Positions 5,342 to 29,758 of a DNA stretch of 29,758 bases are shown here, piece by piece; position 1 is the stretch's first letter; every line of letters starts with the position of its first letter. The stretch covers positions 1 through 29,758 of IMG/VR virus record IMGVR_UViG_3300032893_000223. The stretch is one strand, 5' to 3'. Position numbers and translations under genes: made by a program. Source of the DNA: a virus. The notes beneath the pieces are model-generated. The model made no database searches. It was not told the DNA's origin and saw only the letters and a list, made by a program, of their open reading frames with translations.

Positions 5342-6817
5342 ATGGGCAAACGTGAACTGTCCGCTGAAGAGCGGCAACAGGCTAGACTTAGCAAGATAGA
5401 AAAACAAGGTGAACAGTACTACGAGAAGTATCGTTCACAAATGGATCTTCTTGATAAGTCTACTCTGGCTAAAGTAAAATCGAATAAAGGTGGTATTCAA
5501 CCGCACGATTATTGGGCTCTCGGTAAGCAGCTCGAGCAATTCGAAGAGCAGTTGGCTATTAATGAAGAACAAGGCAACGTTAACTTGCTTGGTCAAATTC
5601 CGAATATCGCTTTTGATGTTATCACTGCGGTGTTTGGTGCTTCGATCATCCCGGTTGTTGCTTCGGTTCAGCCGATTGACGAAGAGCGCGGAACTGTTTA
5701 CTTTAAAACAGTTCGTGATGCTACGACTAAAGGTTCCCAGACTGCTGGCGAAGTGAACATTGATCCTCGTCAGAATGTTGTTACTCCGATCGGTTATGCA
5801 AATAACTCGTTCAGCAACGTTGCTGTGGCTGGTACCACTTCTGGTACTTTGACCTACAGCTTTACTCTGGCTGGTTTCCCGATCAAGTCCGAGACTTTCT
5901 CGGTCAGCCTCGCTTCTAACTCTGCAGTTCAGGGTAAAGACGTTGGCTCTTACCTCAGCTTCCCCGCCAATAGCGATATTGGTCAAATCTGGGGTGCTGG
6001 TGTTTCTGGTACCATCAACTATCTGACTGGCGCAGTCTCTTTGACTTTCGCTGCAGATCCTGGTACGCATGCCAACAACATCGTCGTTAGCTATCAACAG
6101 AACTACGAGTTGAGCTCCGATCTGCCCCAGATCGATTCGTACTTTGCGTCAACCGGCATTTTTGCGAATGTCTACGCACTCAAAGGAACGATCGGTTTGC
6201 TGCAGTCTTACGGTATGAGCAAACGCTTCGGTCTCGTGGCTGAAGATGAAGTTGCTAAAGATCTTGTCCAAGAGATCAACCGTGAGATCGGTGGTGACTT
6301 GATTCGTACTCTTGCCTCTATCGCTCAAGGTACTACGACTTACAATGACCAACCGCCTACTGGCGTGTCGTTGTTTGAGCATCGTCAAACTTACAAGTAC
6401 TTCTTGGCTGGTGCTGAGGAGACGCTTGTGGCGAATGCTGGTCGTGGAACTATCAGCTTGTTGATCGTTGGTCTCGTCCACGCCTCCATCATCCAGACTC
6501 TCCCTGGTTGGGTTAAGTTGTATGATGGTAATGGTTTAGGCTCACATGTTTATGGTACTCTCGATGGTATCACTGTAATTCGTGTGATGGAATCCAACAT
6601 TCTCGGCTCTACTCAAGGATTGGCTGTTTGGAAAGGTTTATCTCCTTTCGAAGCAGCAGTGGTTTATGCTCCGTATATGCCACTGACCGTTACTGCGGTT
6701 CTTCCTCAAGCTCCAAATCCCCTGCAGTCGATGCGTGCTGCTGCGGTTTGGGCAGGTGTTGAAGGTGTGGTTCCCAACTACGTTACTAACTTCAACGTTT
6801 CTAACGTTCAAACTTAA
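5342..6817 (+). CDS. Major capsid protein (T4 gp23-like)
   Basis: 491 residues; ATG with GGAG 5 bases upstream. The N-terminal about 75 residues are charged and helical, like the removable delta-domain of gp23. I73-N74-E75 fits the L/I-x-E cleavage rule of gp21-type proteases. The core then begins (IAFDVITAVFGASIIPVV, then SVQPIDEERGTVYFKTV), matching the region of gp23-type proteins that ends in VQPM-like residues. Residues about 155-255 form a beta-rich segment (GTLTYSFTLAGFPI, GTINYLTGAVSLTF) placed like an insertion domain. The C-terminal P/A-domain region includes GITVIRVMES and YAPYMPL. The gene is visibly richer in G+C and in codons such as CTC, CGT and TCG than its neighbours, as expected for very high expression. 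It follows the scaffold gene and is followed by a strong hairpin. Confidence 0.92.
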   Translation: MGKRELSAEERQQARLSKIEKQGEQYYEKYRSQMDLLDKSTLAKVKSNKGGIQPHDYWALGKQLEQFEEQLAINEEQGNVNLLGQIPNIAFDVITAVFGASIIPVVASVQPIDEERGTVYFKTVRDATTKGSQTAGEVNIDPRQNVVTPIGYANNSFSNVAVAGTTSGTLTYSFTLAGFPIKSETFSVSLASNSAVQGKDVGSYLSFPANSDIGQIWGAGVSGTINYLTGAVSLTFAADPGTHANNIVVSYQQNYELSSDLPQIDSYFASTGIFANVYALKGTIGLLQSYGMSKRFGLVAEDEVAKDLVQEINREIGGDLIRTLASIAQGTTTYNDQPPTGVSLFEHRQTYKYFLAGAEETLVANAGRGTISLLIVGLVHASIIQTLPGWVKLYDGNGLGSHVYGTLDGITVIRVMESNILGSTQGLAVWKGLSPFEAAVVYAPYMPLTVTAVLPQAPNPLQSMRAAAVWAGVEGVVPNYVTNFNVSNVQT

Positions 6818-24228: not shown

Positions 24229-24834
24229 ATAGGCTTAAGCTTTAATTCTCAATTTACTAGCATTTTAGCTATTCCTGAAAATCTTCAGGAGCAACCACTT
24301 TATCCTAAAGTGTGTGAGATGATGGACTATATCGTCACCACTTATGCTACTCAGTTTGAGGATATCACAAATAAATATGCCAACCCAACTGAAGCTAGTC
24401 AAGAAGTTATTGTTAATGTTGTGAATGAACTTGGCTTCCAGTACATTACTAATGTAATGGGAACAATAACTAATTTTGAATTTAATTCGCTACTTAGCTT
24501 CATTAGTCTTATTAACTTACTTAAAGGATCTCGTCAGGGACTAGAGCTAGTTCTTATTCTTCTTGGATTTGATTCGGTTATCACAGAGTGGTGGGAACAA
24601 TCTCCTCAGGGAGAGCCTTGGACCTATGAACTGCTAGTTATTATGAATAACTCGTATGTTACTGATCCAACGTTGACTTTAAATAAATTATTGACATTTG
24701 CAAGAGCATATGTTTATCCGACAATTAGTAACTACAACTATCAGTTTGACTTCCAATTTGCTCAGGCAGGAACGGCACTTGCTGGCTTCACTCGTCAATA
24801 CTACCCATATGCTATTTCTGCGAGGATAAGCTAA
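24229..24834 (+). CDS. Tail protein gpI-like baseplate protein (P2 gpI type), start uncertain
   Basis: The reading frame is open from 24220 to 24834. The first standard start is GTG 24310, which has no usable SD, yet the upstream codons look like protein (LSFNSQFTSILAIPENLQEQ, then PLYPKVCEMM). ATA at 24229 with AGG eight bases upstream is the best-placed start, though ATA is rare; from it the product is 201 residues. The core matches P2 gpI: LLKGSRQGLELVLILLGFDS, VITEWWEQSPQGEPWTYELL, NKLLTFARAYVYPTI, and the following gene is an H-like fibre, as in P2. The family forms the outer wedge part that holds fibres (the role of T4 gp7). Confidence 0.8.
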   Translation: MGLSFNSQFTSILAIPENLQEQPLYPKVCEMMDYIVTTYATQFEDITNKYANPTEASQEVIVNVVNELGFQYITNVMGTITNFEFNSLLSFISLINLLKGSRQGLELVLILLGFDSVITEWWEQSPQGEPWTYELLVIMNNSYVTDPTLTLNKLLTFARAYVYPTISNYNYQFDFQFAQAGTALAGFTRQYYPYAISARIS

Positions 24835-24835
24835 T

Positions 24836-27800
24836 ATGTCTTTTGTTGGAATTATTACAAACGCAGGTCTTACAGCTGCTCAACTTGCAGCGCAGAATAA
24901 TGGATTCTTCATTGTTCCTACTGGATTTGGCGTTAGTAATCAGTCAGGGACATTAGATCCTACTCGAACTTCTCCTAATGCAGGTCAGTGGTACACGGGG
25001 ATGATTAGTAGCCGAGTAGTTATTGATCTAAATACAATAGAATTTGTATGTACCATCCCCCCAGGCCAGTTACCTCCAAATACGCAAAAAACAGTTAATG
25101 AGGTCTACCTATATACTTCTAGTTATGCAACTGGAAGTTATAATGGTGTAAATTATGCTGCTTTGAATCTTGGAACTGTTGGTAATAGTATTACTCTGAC
25201 ATTTAATGGATCACTGACTAATCAGCAAGTTATTAATAACTGGAATACAGCTAATCCTACCAATATGGTAAGGATCACATCGGGAAATGCATCAGGAATA
25301 TCTCCGTCAGGAAATCTGATACTTACTAATGGCGCTAGTAATATTCTCTTTGCTATTGGTGAGACAACTGCTAATACGACTATTACTTATGATCCTACTG
25401 GATCTGTTACTCTTGATCTGCAAGTTGCAATCTTAAATACAAATTTAACTAATTTAATTACATTTGCATTTACTGAAGCAACTGAGATTGCTGAGCATAA
25501 TACAGATCCAAATGCTCATCCAGATTATCTAGAAGCACTACATATTGCGGCTATTTTTCCCAAGGCTGGAGCCGTTCCATTCTCATATGATGGCCAGAGC
25601 TACGATCAATTTCCAAATTTCGAAGGAACACCTGCATCTGTAGTTTATGGTGGTATTACTTTCACTGCAATTTATAATGGACCAAATGGCAACAGCATCT
25701 CTTTGACTTTTGACGGTGTCTCAACTGTTGATGAAGTTTGTTCATACTGGAATACAGCTAATCCTGAAAATCCTGTTCAAAATAGCAGTTTAAGTGGATT
25801 AGAAGTTTTACCTGCTGCTGTTGAAAATCTGAGCGGTGGTACTCTTTCTGTCAATCAGTGGGATATCGTTTACTGTGACGTTGATGGAGTTTATAAGCAG
25901 GCTCTTGCTGATGGAACTATAAAATCTCAAGTTGCAGGTATTGCTGATCTAGTTTACAATAAAGTTATATCTGAAGGCTTTATTGACAAGACTACTGGTT
26001 TTACAGCTGGTAAAACAATTTATCTGTCAAATACCATTCCCGGAGCAATGACAACTGTAACGACAGCTGTTCCTGTTGGTATTCAGATCCGCTCTTCTCC
26101 TGATCTAATTTTATTCTCTAAAGCTAGCTCAGGTGGAGCATTCAGCACTAATTACACTGCAGTCGTAACTGACACTCCAGGTGCGATCAATTTTCCGACT
26201 ACTCAACAGGCAATTGATGCTGTTCCATCTGGATCAAATATCTTAATTGATAAATTTGAAGAAATTGATTCGGAGATACTGACAAATAATAAACAGATCG
26301 ACTTCGTATTTGCTGGTCCTGGAACCGGTTGGTTTAAGTCTCTCGGATATCATGAAATTCAGGAAATCACTTTTAGTGGCGTTCCAACTTCTGGTACATG
26401 GAGAATTGAATTTGGTGTTGAAGCTACCTCTGACTTGGCATATAATGCTAATGCACTAGCTGTTCAGTCTGCATTAAATGCACTGCCAAATATTTCTGGT
26501 GCGGGTGGTCTTGTTGTAACTGGTAGTTACAGTTCTGGGTTTATTGCTACTTGGAATAATCCTGGAGCTCAGACTCTATTTACTTTTACTAATCCTGGTC
26601 AGGACGAGATTCAGAAATTTAGTTTCGATGCAGTTCCGACATTCGGATCATTCCAGATTGAATTCTTTAATAATGCTGGATACACAACAAATCCTATTGA
26701 CTCAGACTTCACTCTTGCTCAAGTTCAGATGGAAGTTGATCTTGTTCTTGGGGCAGGAAATTCAATTGTTACTGGATCATTTTCAGCGGGATTCACAATT
26801 GAGTACGAAGGTATTTATGGCAAGCAGTCAATAGCTGCAATGCAGGCTGTAAATAACACCTTAGTTAATGGTGTTAATCCAGTTAACATCACCTACTCTG
26901 AATTACAGGCTGGAATTCGTCCTGCTAGTAATTTATTTATTGGCCCTACTCATGTTGTTATAACAAATACTGAAACTCAGCATGGCACTCCAATTGGTCC
27001 TGATACTTGTATCCAGCTTACTGAGGATGACTGCTCTTTTACTGGTCAGGGAGTTATTCAGGGATTTGTTACTGGAATTGATTTTAATGGCACTAAGGGA
27101 CATTTTATTGGTGAAGGTCTTTATTTTGACCCAACAATAACTTATCCAATTTCTACTAATGGCAAAACTCCTCAAATTGATTATAACACTTCTGGTGCAA
27201 TTGGTGTTCCAAGTTTTGATAATCCAGAATTAAGAATTTTACAACATCCTAGTAACAATAATCGTGCTGTTGTTACTTCAGGATCAATGTCAAATATCGA
27301 TGGTACAACTTTTAGTCAGAGTCAAAATAATCAGCTGTTGGATTTTAATGGTGGTCAAATTGACTTCCAAGCTGGTATCATATATGCTGCTGATGGTGTA
27401 ACAAATGTAGGTACTTTTACTCCGGCAACCATGACATCCGGTCAGTATGTATACTACGGAGTATCGGTTAGTCAGTCTGGTGTTAATGCTGACAATACTA
27501 TTGATGGACAACTTCAGATTGTTGTCGGCGTAGTAGGATCTACTCCGTCAAATGCTAGTAAACCAACATTGGGTGGTGGTACTCCGGTAGGTTATGTCTT
27601 AGTTGAGGGTGCTGGCGGATCAAATATTAATCCGGTCCTCCAGGCTGCAGTTACTTCTTTTGCTCCAGGCTCTGGCGGCGGTGGAGCAGCATTCCCACTT
27701 ATTATTCAGGAGACTCCTGCTGGAACAGTTGATGGTACTAATTTAGTATTTACAACTAGTCAAATTCCAAAAGACTCTCAGAGTATCCTGGTTATGGTGA

Positions 27801-28705
27801 ATCGCGTACCGGTTCCCATTACAACAGGTTGGAGTATCGTTGGGAATACGATTACTTTCGTTAATGGGTATCAACCAACTCCCGGTCGTCCACCCTCCGT
27901 ATTCTATATCTCGTCAACAGTTGTTACTAGTATTTCAGGATTTCAAGAAGTACCCGCAGGGACAGTTAATGGAATTAATGATACATTTACATTAACAGGA
28001 CAAGTCCCAAATCAAGAGAGTGCACTCTTGATAGTTGACAGAGCTATTGTACCAACTACTGGCTGGGAATTAATTCAGGGAGCGAGCTCTAGTTCAGTTA
28101 AATTCTTGACCGGATATATTCCTAGCACTGGTCAGACACCATATATCTTCTATCTTACTAACGTCGGATCAATTGGTGGAGGCGGAGGTGGTGGAGGAAT
28201 TACCAGTATAGTAAATGATGGTGGTGGAATTGGTCTTTTTAGATCACTCGCTTCTAATATTGCTCACTTTAAGACATTAATAAATGGAACAAATACTATT
28301 GTTGTTGATAATGGTGATGGTACAGTTCAAGTTAATGCCACAGGTGGCGGCGGCTCCGGTCAGTATGTACCCCAAGGAGATGAATCCACTCCAGAAGTAA
28401 TTAATCCTGCAGCTGGCATAACTCCAACTTCTGATTTACTACAGTCCTGGTATATAAAATCAGCGACTTCAAGTGGAGCTCAACAAGTAACAGCAAATCC
28501 CCAGATTGCTGCTGGGACAGCGGTGGGCCAGAGACTAGCGCTAACTACAGCTGATGGAAATGATTTTGTTTATTTTGAAGATGGAAATGGTTTATCTCTT
28601 AATGGAGAGTGGCCAAATCATCTAGCATCACCATCTCAAATTCTGTTAACTACCCTCGAATTAGAGTGGACAGGGGTGAGATGGCGAGAAAGAAATCGGT
28701 CGTAA
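24836..28705 (+). CDS. Large tail fibre protein (P2 gpH-like N-terminus)
   Basis: 1289 residues; ATG two bases after the gpI-like stop. Residues 1-100 match the H-type fibre head (GIITNAGLTAAQLAAQNNGF, RVVIDLNTIEFVCTIPPGQL, NEVYLYTS) that docks to gpI/gpJ. Then come two 70-residue beta modules also found in the wedge gene, a beta-helix-like part (TTQQAIDAVPSGSNILID and later FTGQGVIQGFVTGIDFNG) interrupted by two repeats of the phage E-I-Q-x-x-x-F-x-G-x-P-T-x-G type, and a fibre segment with YYGVSVSQSGVNADNT. Two PAGTVDG/PAGTVNG repeats follow. The C-terminal about 75 residues (GLSLNGEW, LELEWTGVRWRERNRS) are also found at the end of the secreted protein at 28755. It should be the main receptor-binding fibre. 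Confidence 0.87.
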   Translation: MSFVGIITNAGLTAAQLAAQNNGFFIVPTGFGVSNQSGTLDPTRTSPNAGQWYTGMISSRVVIDLNTIEFVCTIPPGQLPPNTQKTVNEVYLYTSSYATGSYNGVNYAALNLGTVGNSITLTFNGSLTNQQVINNWNTANPTNMVRITSGNASGISPSGNLILTNGASNILFAIGETTANTTITYDPTGSVTLDLQVAILNTNLTNLITFAFTEATEIAEHNTDPNAHPDYLEALHIAAIFPKAGAVPFSYDGQSYDQFPNFEGTPASVVYGGITFTAIYNGPNGNSISLTFDGVSTVDEVCSYWNTANPENPVQNSSLSGLEVLPAAVENLSGGTLSVNQWDIVYCDVDGVYKQALADGTIKSQVAGIADLVYNKVISEGFIDKTTGFTAGKTIYLSNTIPGAMTTVTTAVPVGIQIRSSPDLILFSKASSGGAFSTNYTAVVTDTPGAINFPTTQQAIDAVPSGSNILIDKFEEIDSEILTNNKQIDFVFAGPGTGWFKSLGYHEIQEITFSGVPTSGTWRIEFGVEATSDLAYNANALAVQSALNALPNISGAGGLVVTGSYSSGFIATWNNPGAQTLFTFTNPGQDEIQKFSFDAVPTFGSFQIEFFNNAGYTTNPIDSDFTLAQVQMEVDLVLGAGNSIVTGSFSAGFTIEYEGIYGKQSIAAMQAVNNTLVNGVNPVNITYSELQAGIRPASNLFIGPTHVVITNTETQHGTPIGPDTCIQLTEDDCSFTGQGVIQGFVTGIDFNGTKGHFIGEGLYFDPTITYPISTNGKTPQIDYNTSGAIGVPSFDNPELRILQHPSNNNRAVVTSGSMSNIDGTTFSQSQNNQLLDFNGGQIDFQAGIIYAADGVTNVGTFTPATMTSGQYVYYGVSVSQSGVNADNTIDGQLQIVVGVVGSTPSNASKPTLGGGTPVGYVLVEGAGGSNINPVLQAAVTSFAPGSGGGGAAFPLIIQETPAGTVDGTNLVFTTSQIPKDSQSILVMVNRVPVPITTGWSIVGNTITFVNGYQPTPGRPPSVFYISSTVVTSISGFQEVPAGTVNGINDTFTLTGQVPNQESALLIVDRAIVPTTGWELIQGASSSSVKFLTGYIPSTGQTPYIFYLTNVGSIGGGGGGGGITSIVNDGGGIGLFRSLASNIAHFKTLINGTNTIVVDNGDGTVQVNATGGGGSGQYVPQGDESTPEVINPAAGITPTSDLLQSWYIKSATSSGAQQVTANPQIAAGTAVGQRLALTTADGNDFVYFEDGNGLSLNGEWPNHLASPSQILLTTLELEWTGVRWRERNRS
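26353..26865 (+). repeat. Two tandem beta repeats inserted in the fibre beta-helix
   Basis: Copy one (from EIQEITFSGVPTSGTWRIEF, with LAYNANALAVQSALNALPN and VVTGSYSSGF) and copy two (from EIQKFSFDAVPTFGSFQIEF, with FTLAQVQMEVDLVLGAGN and IVTGSFSAGF) share the pattern of a widespread phage and surface-protein repeat. Boundaries are approximate. Confidence 0.75.
27690..28171 (+). repeat. Two tandem PAGTV repeats near the fibre C-terminus
   Basis: Copy one begins IIQETPAGTVDGTNLVFTTS and ends PSVFYISS; copy two begins FQEVPAGTVNGINDTFTLTG and ends PYIFYLTN. Both contain a V-N-R or V-D-R turn, a T-T-GW strand and a F-x-x-GY-x-P-x-x-G segment. They are about 80 residues each and diverged in DNA. 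Boundaries are approximate. Confidence 0.8.
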
Positions 28706-28754
28706 CAAACGGATTTGTAGTAGAAATTAATGCCTATATGGCAAGGAGGACAGT

Positions 28755-29699
28755 ATGAAAAATATTAAAACATGGTTGCTATTAGTGGCATTGACCACTA
28801 GTGTGACCGCGTGGGCAAACGGCTCACGAACATTAGATGGTGCGCTGATCACCAATGGTGCAGCGACACTGACTCTACCTACAAGTACAGATACACTTGT
28901 TGGTCGAGCAACTACTGATACTTTGACAAATAAAAGTATTAGTGGTGCAACAAACACATTCAGCAATATTCCAGTTAGCGCTATTGCTACTGGTACAGGA
29001 TTGAGTGTTCAGTCTGGTGGTACTGGTGATACTACTCTGACTGTCCATGGTGTCCTGATTGGTGAAGGAACTAGTGCTGTCGCAGTGACTAGTGCTCCTG
29101 CTCAGTACCAATCTTTGGTTGGTAATGCTTCTGGTGATCCTAGCTTTCAAGCAATTTCTCTTAACCAATCTGCTGCTGTTAGCGGTCAGTTGGCTACGGG
29201 CAATGGTGGTACCGGTTTGAACGGTATTACTGCTCACGATTTGCTTGTTGGTAACGGATCTTCAGCAGCTAATTTGATTGCTCCTTCAACTGCTGGATTT
29301 GTTCTTACATCAAATGGTGCTTCAGCTGATCCTAGTTTCCAAGCTGTTTCGTCTCCGGCACCTTCATTGAATGGTGGCTCTGGTTCAGCTCAGTCTGTTA
29401 CTGCTGCGGGTGGTGTATCTCTCGCATCTTTAACTTATCAAAATTTTGCCTGGGTGGCAGGATCACCTGGTGCTGTTACAGTTACTGCTACTCCGTCAGT
29501 AAGCGCAGGATCTGCTGATGGTCAATTATTGAGAATTGTTGGAACAAACAATACCAATACTGTAACTCTGCAAGATCAGGCTAATTTAGCCTCTAGTGGT
29601 CTGAGTTTAAACGGTAATTGGGTTGGAGCTAAAGATAGTGTTCTCAATCTTCACTGGGACGCCACTCAATCATTGTGGGTAGAAGACGCAAGACGGTAA
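28755..29699 (+). CDS. Exported fibre-like protein with Sec signal peptide
   Basis: 314 residues; ATG with AAGGAGG just upstream. The N-terminus is a textbook Sec signal: MKNIK, a hydrophobic core TWLLLVALTTSV, and an A-W-A site before NGS (cleavage after about residue 22). The mature part is fibre-like: GGTGDTTLTVHGVLIGEGTS, VLTSNGASADPSFQAVS, and a C-terminal module (GLSLNGNW, VLNLHWDATQSLWVEDARR) that matches the end of the upstream virion fibre. Virion fibres assemble in the cytoplasm and do not need export, so a secreted copy suggests a periplasmic or surface protein, for example a receptor-masking or decoy factor. That function is inference. No lipobox is seen, because the cleavage region has no Cys. 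Confidence 0.8.
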   Translation: MKNIKTWLLLVALTTSVTAWANGSRTLDGALITNGAATLTLPTSTDTLVGRATTDTLTNKSISGATNTFSNIPVSAIATGTGLSVQSGGTGDTTLTVHGVLIGEGTSAVAVTSAPAQYQSLVGNASGDPSFQAISLNQSAAVSGQLATGNGGTGLNGITAHDLLVGNGSSAANLIAPSTAGFVLTSNGASADPSFQAVSSPAPSLNGGSGSAQSVTAAGGVSLASLTYQNFAWVAGSPGAVTVTATPSVSAGSADGQLLRIVGTNNTNTVTLQDQANLASSGLSLNGNWVGAKDSVLNLHWDATQSLWVEDARR

Positions 29700-29711: not shown

Positions 29712-29758
29712 GTGAAGTCAATTACTTCTAAAGTAATTAGATTACTATTATGTGTCTC
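29712..29758 (+). CDS. Start of a gene with signal-peptide-like N-terminus (truncated by window)
   Basis: GTG at 29712 preceded by AGGAG (29701-29705) with a 6-base spacer. The visible codons give MKSITSKVIRLLLCV, a basic start followed by a hydrophobic run with a Cys, as in Sec or lipoprotein signals. The gene continues outside the window, so identity is unknown. It lies 12 bases after the exported fibre-like gene, suggesting an operon of exported proteins. Confidence 0.5.
   Translation, partial: MKSITSKVIRLLLCV

Follow-up and report, generated by a model that had tools for sequence, protein, structure and literature searches.

A predicted Sec-exported fibre-like protein in a phage tail gene cluster and its recurrence in other phages

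Tail fibres are normally virion proteins that are assembled in the cytoplasm and carry no signal peptide. Why, then, would a phage encode a fibre-like protein with a signal peptide directly behind its tail fibre gene? Such a gene lies near the end of a viral contig of 29,758 nucleotides (IMG/VR record IMGVR_UViG_3300032893_000223, positions 1 to 29,758), which is called the window here. The contig carries a structural gene cluster of T4-like type, with an S77 protease, a gp23 capsid, a gp5-type hub and a Tail_P2_I protein (Table 1), and a gap of 49 nt separates the 1289-aa tail fibre gene from the gene under study. The capsid relatives among isolated phages are Rhizobium phages, e.g. RHph_Y65 (45%), and in RHph_Y65 the tail-region fibre genes all lack a signal peptide. 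A gp23 family search in ten relatives gave no match, and as its controls were silent too, it is uninformative.

Signal peptide and start site of the gene

The N-terminus of the protein follows the Sec layout, with an n-region KNIK (+2), a hydrophobic core WLLLVALTTSV and an AxA c-region followed by NG. The signal was called with a crude home-made scorer which, in a benchmark of 67 E. coli K-12 CDS, called four of the six exported proteins and one of the 61 others. Among the 33 ORFs of the window, this one alone was called. When its own first 40 residues were shuffled, the real score was reached in 172 of 20,000 trials, and among 16,000 shuffled N-termini made from the other ORFs, 58 were called. 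Since the 314-aa protein contains a single Met, no signal-free ATG start is possible. The signal peptide is kept in full-length homologues with 44–52% identity, one of 382 aa in G001, a close relative of the window phage (capsid 87% identical), and one of 352/361 aa in G004, a phage with a complete genome of 54 kb, a terminal repeat of 123 bp and a tail module different from that of the window. No lipobox was found: the proposed cleavage region reads TAWA followed by NG, and the mature part has no cysteine.

The Sec signal peptide with an A-W-A site proposed in the earlier note thus stands, on the scorer call, the shuffled controls, the ribosome-binding site at the signal Met and the conservation in homologues. 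That the hydrophobic start is not exported, an outcome which that note had set against its own proposal, is made unlikely by the conservation of the signal at this level of identity and by the cysteine-rich character of the exported group (see below). Judged from its sequence, the protein is almost certainly exported via Sec. As the call is a sequence-based prediction, one could still argue that the hydrophobic start is incidental, or that it provides membrane association only, with no functional export. We consider this very unlikely, given that the signal is conserved in homologues and recurs in unrelated lineages with canonical AxA sites, that the ribosome-binding site is placed at the signal Met, and that only 2 of 80 viral loci fetched by a shared fibre motif had a signal on or beside the matching fibre. 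The rarity of this arrangement also indicates that the signal does not simply follow from fibre sequence or composition. The motif DTLTNK was rejected as a way to single out exported fibres, because it is also common in phage fibres that lack a signal.

The ORF that begins at 29712 probably encodes a second exported protein, as its N-terminus suggests. It has its own Shine-Dalgarno sequence.

Table 1. Features of the window and of the gp01-type marker family
Feature	Coordinates	Strand	Remarks
gp23-type major capsid protein	5342..6817	+	lineage context
Tail_P2_I-type tail protein	24310..24834	+	upstream neighbour; domain search
1289-aa non-exported tail fibre	24836..28705	+	last ~110 residues (28376-28702) homologous to the exported tip
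Shine-Dalgarno AGGAGG	28744..28749	+	5 nt upstream of ATG; read from sequence
Fibre-like protein CDS, predicted Sec-exported	28755..29699	+	314 aa
Predicted Sec signal peptide MKNIKTWLLLVALTTSVTAWA	28755..28817	+	home-made scorer; conserved in homologues; proposed cleavage A19-W20-A21/N22
Mature N-terminal segment GSRTLDG..TNGAATLTLPTSTDTLVGRATTDTLTNKSISGATNTFSNI	28818..28970	+	common to exported proteins of G001, G004 and L162
Two GGTG...GNGTSAV...DPSFQA fibre repeats	29013..29351	+	self-alignment versus shuffles
C-terminal tip domain	29355..29696	+	beta-sandwich, pLDDT 83.6 in a model of this domain by itself, with six homologues; related to C-terminal domains of phage depolymerases and tail fibres
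Further ORF start, signal-peptide-like N-terminus VKSITSKVIRLLLCV...	29712..29758	+	ORF cut by the contig end
gp01-type signal-peptide marker family	L237:1-828, L240:21591-22475, L241:21158-22102, L234:4999-5910		in all tailed Bdellovibrio phages examined

Fibre repeats, C-terminal tip and cysteine content

Two repeat units, at residues ~87–135 and 150–199, align with a score of 96, against a mean of 27 for shuffled controls (SD 5, max 52, n=2,000). The fibre-type repeats announced in the earlier note are therefore real; its description of a fibre-like protein inside a virion gene cluster, without standard annotation, agrees with the ORF, the tail neighbours and these repeats. The window protein had no match in sequence searches of Pfam, PHROGs and the PDB.

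The last 114 residues of the protein align with the last 110 residues of the 1289-aa tail fibre (E=3e-7), with a score of 105, where shuffled sequences average 33 (SD 6, max 65). The full-length AlphaFold model was set aside (pLDDT 43.5). In a viral structure library, the model of the tip domain resembled phage tail-fibre and pectate-lyase proteins. Searched against the PDB, it gave Z 9.4 with a domain from a complex of chaperone and substrate, Z 8.4 with the C-terminal domain of a tailspike depolymerase from a phage and Z 6.4 with TSP4 of CBA120. Because Z values near 8 can be background, the tip assignment rests on the sequence link to PF25692 (Phage_depo_C). The cut-off of this family, 25 bits, was passed by the homologous tips L049:5902-6222 (35.1) and L010:13838-14185 (25.9), and the window's own tip gave no match to it at E<=1.

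The exported tip of the window is 43–49% identical to other exported tips versus 33% to the tip of its own fibre. In the Bdellovibrio phage phi1422 (NC_019525), in contig L162 and in the podovirus MW202898, the tips of the exported proteins are unlike those of their own fibre. The tips also vary between phages, being C1q-like (by eye), Gly-rich or of depolymerase type.

In 17 exported fibres, 1.14% of the residues are cysteine. The share is 0.39% in the 11 non-exported fibres next to them (p=4e-7 by Fisher test on residues, p=0.047 by Mann-Whitney test on proteins) and 0.40% in a background of 137 fibre-like ORFs (p=0.0015, Mann-Whitney test on proteins). Maturation in an oxidising compartment would lead one to expect such an enrichment. 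The mature protein of the window contains no cysteine at all.

The cysteine enrichment would suit a virion part that is exported, matures in the periplasm with disulfides and trimer formation, and docks on the particle when the cell bursts. The genes lie among or beside tail genes, and in the complete genome of G004 no other GG-repeat fibre was seen. However, no conserved baseplate-attachment domain was seen, most of the genomes already have a non-exported fibre bearing a tip, and we know of no precedent for an exported fibre that docks on virions after lysis. We therefore consider such a late addition to the virion improbable.

Occurrence in other phages and candidate hosts

At the corresponding position, G001 encodes three fibre-like proteins with signal peptides, of 382, 143 and 434 aa; a TM holin-like gene and then a lipoprotein gene lie downstream of them. 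An ORF between these fibre genes (L010:15885-16619) has zinc-finger-like and endonuclease-like motifs and looks by eye like a homing endonuclease. In G004, four exported fibre-like genes, one of them coding for a full-length homologue (44%), lie in the tail-to-lysis region and a fifth lies elsewhere; outside the tail module, a fibre-like ORF of 1014 aa has a signal peptide (L130, G004:12868-15912). In MW202898 and L162, the end of a short fibre gene with the same tip domain overlaps with the exported ORF. The 175-kb contig L234 has two exported fibre genes ahead of a lipoprotein gene and a holin gene, and single or more divergent cases were found in L158, L187, L005, L090 and L141. A 2121-aa fibre-like ORF with a signal peptide is present in L005 (579-6944), overlapping at its end with another ORF of this kind. 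Together, these comparisons show that a fibre with a predicted Sec signal, built from ordinary phage fibre modules, recurs in at least six phage lineages. The exported fibre is a real, conserved and recurrent feature.

Most of the genes come straight after a fibre gene, precede a holin gene, or both. A holin-like family with an SSMKVSFL.. motif (L010:17951-18511, L162:13013-13393, L233:5980-6357, L234:5911-6756) is common to otherwise unrelated exported-fibre phages. Holin-like, lipoprotein and endolysin-like genes are neighbours in G001, L187, L234 and phi1422, and this vicinity could suggest that the protein belongs to the lysis module and acts on the envelope by binding peptidoglycan or the outer membrane. 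But the modules found are fibre repeats and tips, with no enzymatic or peptidoglycan-binding domain, and a role as lysis accessory is, in our view, slightly less probable still than the late addition to the virion.

In phi1422, the gene of fibre gp67, which has a tip-like end, is followed by gp68 and then by a holin-like gene. The gp68 protein (614 aa, annotated as hypothetical) starts with the signal MKFMIAFIIALFSVTMATA, and phi1422 has another exported fibre-like protein, gp75. A prophage in a Bdellovibrionota genome (L271) has the same order, and its gp68 homologue (37% identity) has its own signal. No convincing direct sequence homology was found between gp68 and the exported proteins of L187 or MW202898, and gp67 matches the window protein weakly and in the tip only (E=1e-4). 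phi1422 is a member of a described phage group with common structural modules (PMC3391216). A signal-peptide fibre behind the tail fibre was found in none of its four sisters, which are phages of Vibrio, Aeromonas, Pectobacterium and Iodobacter, against two exported fibre-like genes in phi1422. No exported fibres were found in phi1402 and MAC3UK; two of the three isolated tailed Bdellovibrio phages are thus without the trait, which is not universal in this group.

Among 50,697 phage records, the gp01 family of phi1422 had matches only in Bdellovibrio phages. It was present in 22 of 291 Bdellovibrionota genomes versus 2 of 299 Pseudomonadota genomes (marginal), and in the Bdellovibrionota genomes the matches were mostly in chromosomal regions and not in prophages. 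This family offers a usable host marker for metagenomic phages. As L234 encodes a member, its host very probably belongs to the Bdellovibrionota. L234 and G001 have their exported-fibre type (E=4e-32) and holin type in common, so that the host of the window phage is plausibly also a member of the Bdellovibrionota, with about an even chance on this indirect evidence; it is probably a diderm bacterium. The G001 holin had no match in the Bdellovibrionota genomes, which is uninformative. Matches to the A3 profile in 10 of 291 Bdellovibrionota versus 2 of 299 Pseudomonadota genomes were mostly to generic fibre repeats and are weak.

Bdellovibrio bacteriovorus itself exports signal-peptide, phage-fibre-like proteins, the MAT (mosaic adhesive trimer) fibres, to the predator surface, and all 21 MATs are said to have, directly behind the signal, a conserved beta-rich domain of ~130 aa (PMC10769870). 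Large cellular signal-peptide fibres of MAT type, with a common PQLTYHGRI N-terminal domain, were noted in Bdellovibrionota genomes (L266:15684-19904, L268:1-3536). The exported phage proteins might likewise be host-surface adhesins ("morons"), displayed on the infected and probably predatory cell as MATs are, where they would alter the adhesion of the host or the bdelloplast with no receptor block. The exported fibres of phi1422, of the Bdellovibrionota prophage and of the marker-bearing L234 fit this explanation, as do tips that differ between phages. On the other hand, BLAST and HMM searches with two chosen MAT-like Bdellovibrionota proteins as stand-ins found the MAT N-domain in none of the 17 exported phage proteins. 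Moreover, the lineage of the window and phi1422 appear virulent, with the genes in the late region, which leaves little time to benefit the host. We regard an adhesin as unlikely, if worth keeping in mind. Membership of the MAT superfamily was rejected, as the Sec signal is present but the N-domain behind it is missing. By sequence, the exported phage fibres are MAT-like in design and no members of the MAT superfamily. A bolder proposal, which we hold to be less likely than a plain adhesin, concerns phages of predatory Bdellovibrionota, whose progeny must escape a host inside another cell. These phages would have dedicated Sec-exported fibres that use the host's own surface-fibre route, appear on the infected predator or within the bdelloplast, and there hide receptors or direct adhesion.

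Possible function and comparison with known systems

We tentatively favour, at somewhat under an even chance, an exported fibre which is released or displayed and which occupies surface ligands, blocking superinfection or adsorption to debris. It would be synthesized late, together with the virion fibre, cross the inner membrane by Sec and then lose its signal by cleavage. Trimerisation would take place in the periplasm, apart from the virions assembling in the cytoplasm. Having no lipobox, the protein would either stay soluble until lysis or be displayed at the cell surface. The tip could then occupy ligands on the host surface or on debris, which would either exclude related phage or stop progeny from re-adsorbing to a dying host or what is left of it.

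Receptor masking, superinfection blocking and release as a decoy, suggested in the earlier note, are hypothetical roles. The idea of masking or decoy is supported by the tip domain that the protein has in common with the window phage's own fibre. Masking of the phage's own receptor is weakened by the greater closeness of the exported tip to other exported tips and by the unrelated tips in which several members end. In addition, a soluble periplasmic protein in a diderm host would not mask a surface receptor before lysis, unless a route across the outer membrane exists.

In the literature searched (subscription literature was outside its scope), no description of Sec-exported phage fibres was found. 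If the favoured reading is true, some phages use receptor-binding modules away from their own particles, by rerouting fibres through Sec, and could in this way exclude superinfecting phages, avoid debris or remodel the host surface. The gp68 protein of phi1422 provides a concrete handle on the phage biology of predatory bacteria. The findings could also bear on module exchange between host MAT fibres and phage fibres.

The closest likenesses to the window protein come from four sides. With phage tail fibres and depolymerases, it has in common the GGTG/DTLTNK repeats and a C-terminal beta-sandwich tip of receptor-binding type, but it differs from ordinary tail fibres in its conserved signal peptide. 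Llp of T5 and Cor are small superinfection-exclusion lipoproteins, and Llp blocks its receptor by acting from the periplasm on a TonB-dependent transporter (PMC9586334). The window protein is also a phage protein predicted to be sent to the envelope, with a possible block of re-adsorption to infected cells or debris, but as a 314-aa fibre without lipobox it is a different molecule and would work by a different mechanism. It resembles the MATs in its signal peptide, phage-fibre-like body and exchangeable C-terminal tips, with a plausible predatory host background, whereas it is phage-encoded, lies in a late tail/lysis region and is only a candidate for surface display. Finally, gp67 and gp68 of phi1422 present the same succession of a tip-ended fibre gene and a signal-peptide fibre-like gene, although gp68 is of another sequence type and phi1422 belongs to another phage group.
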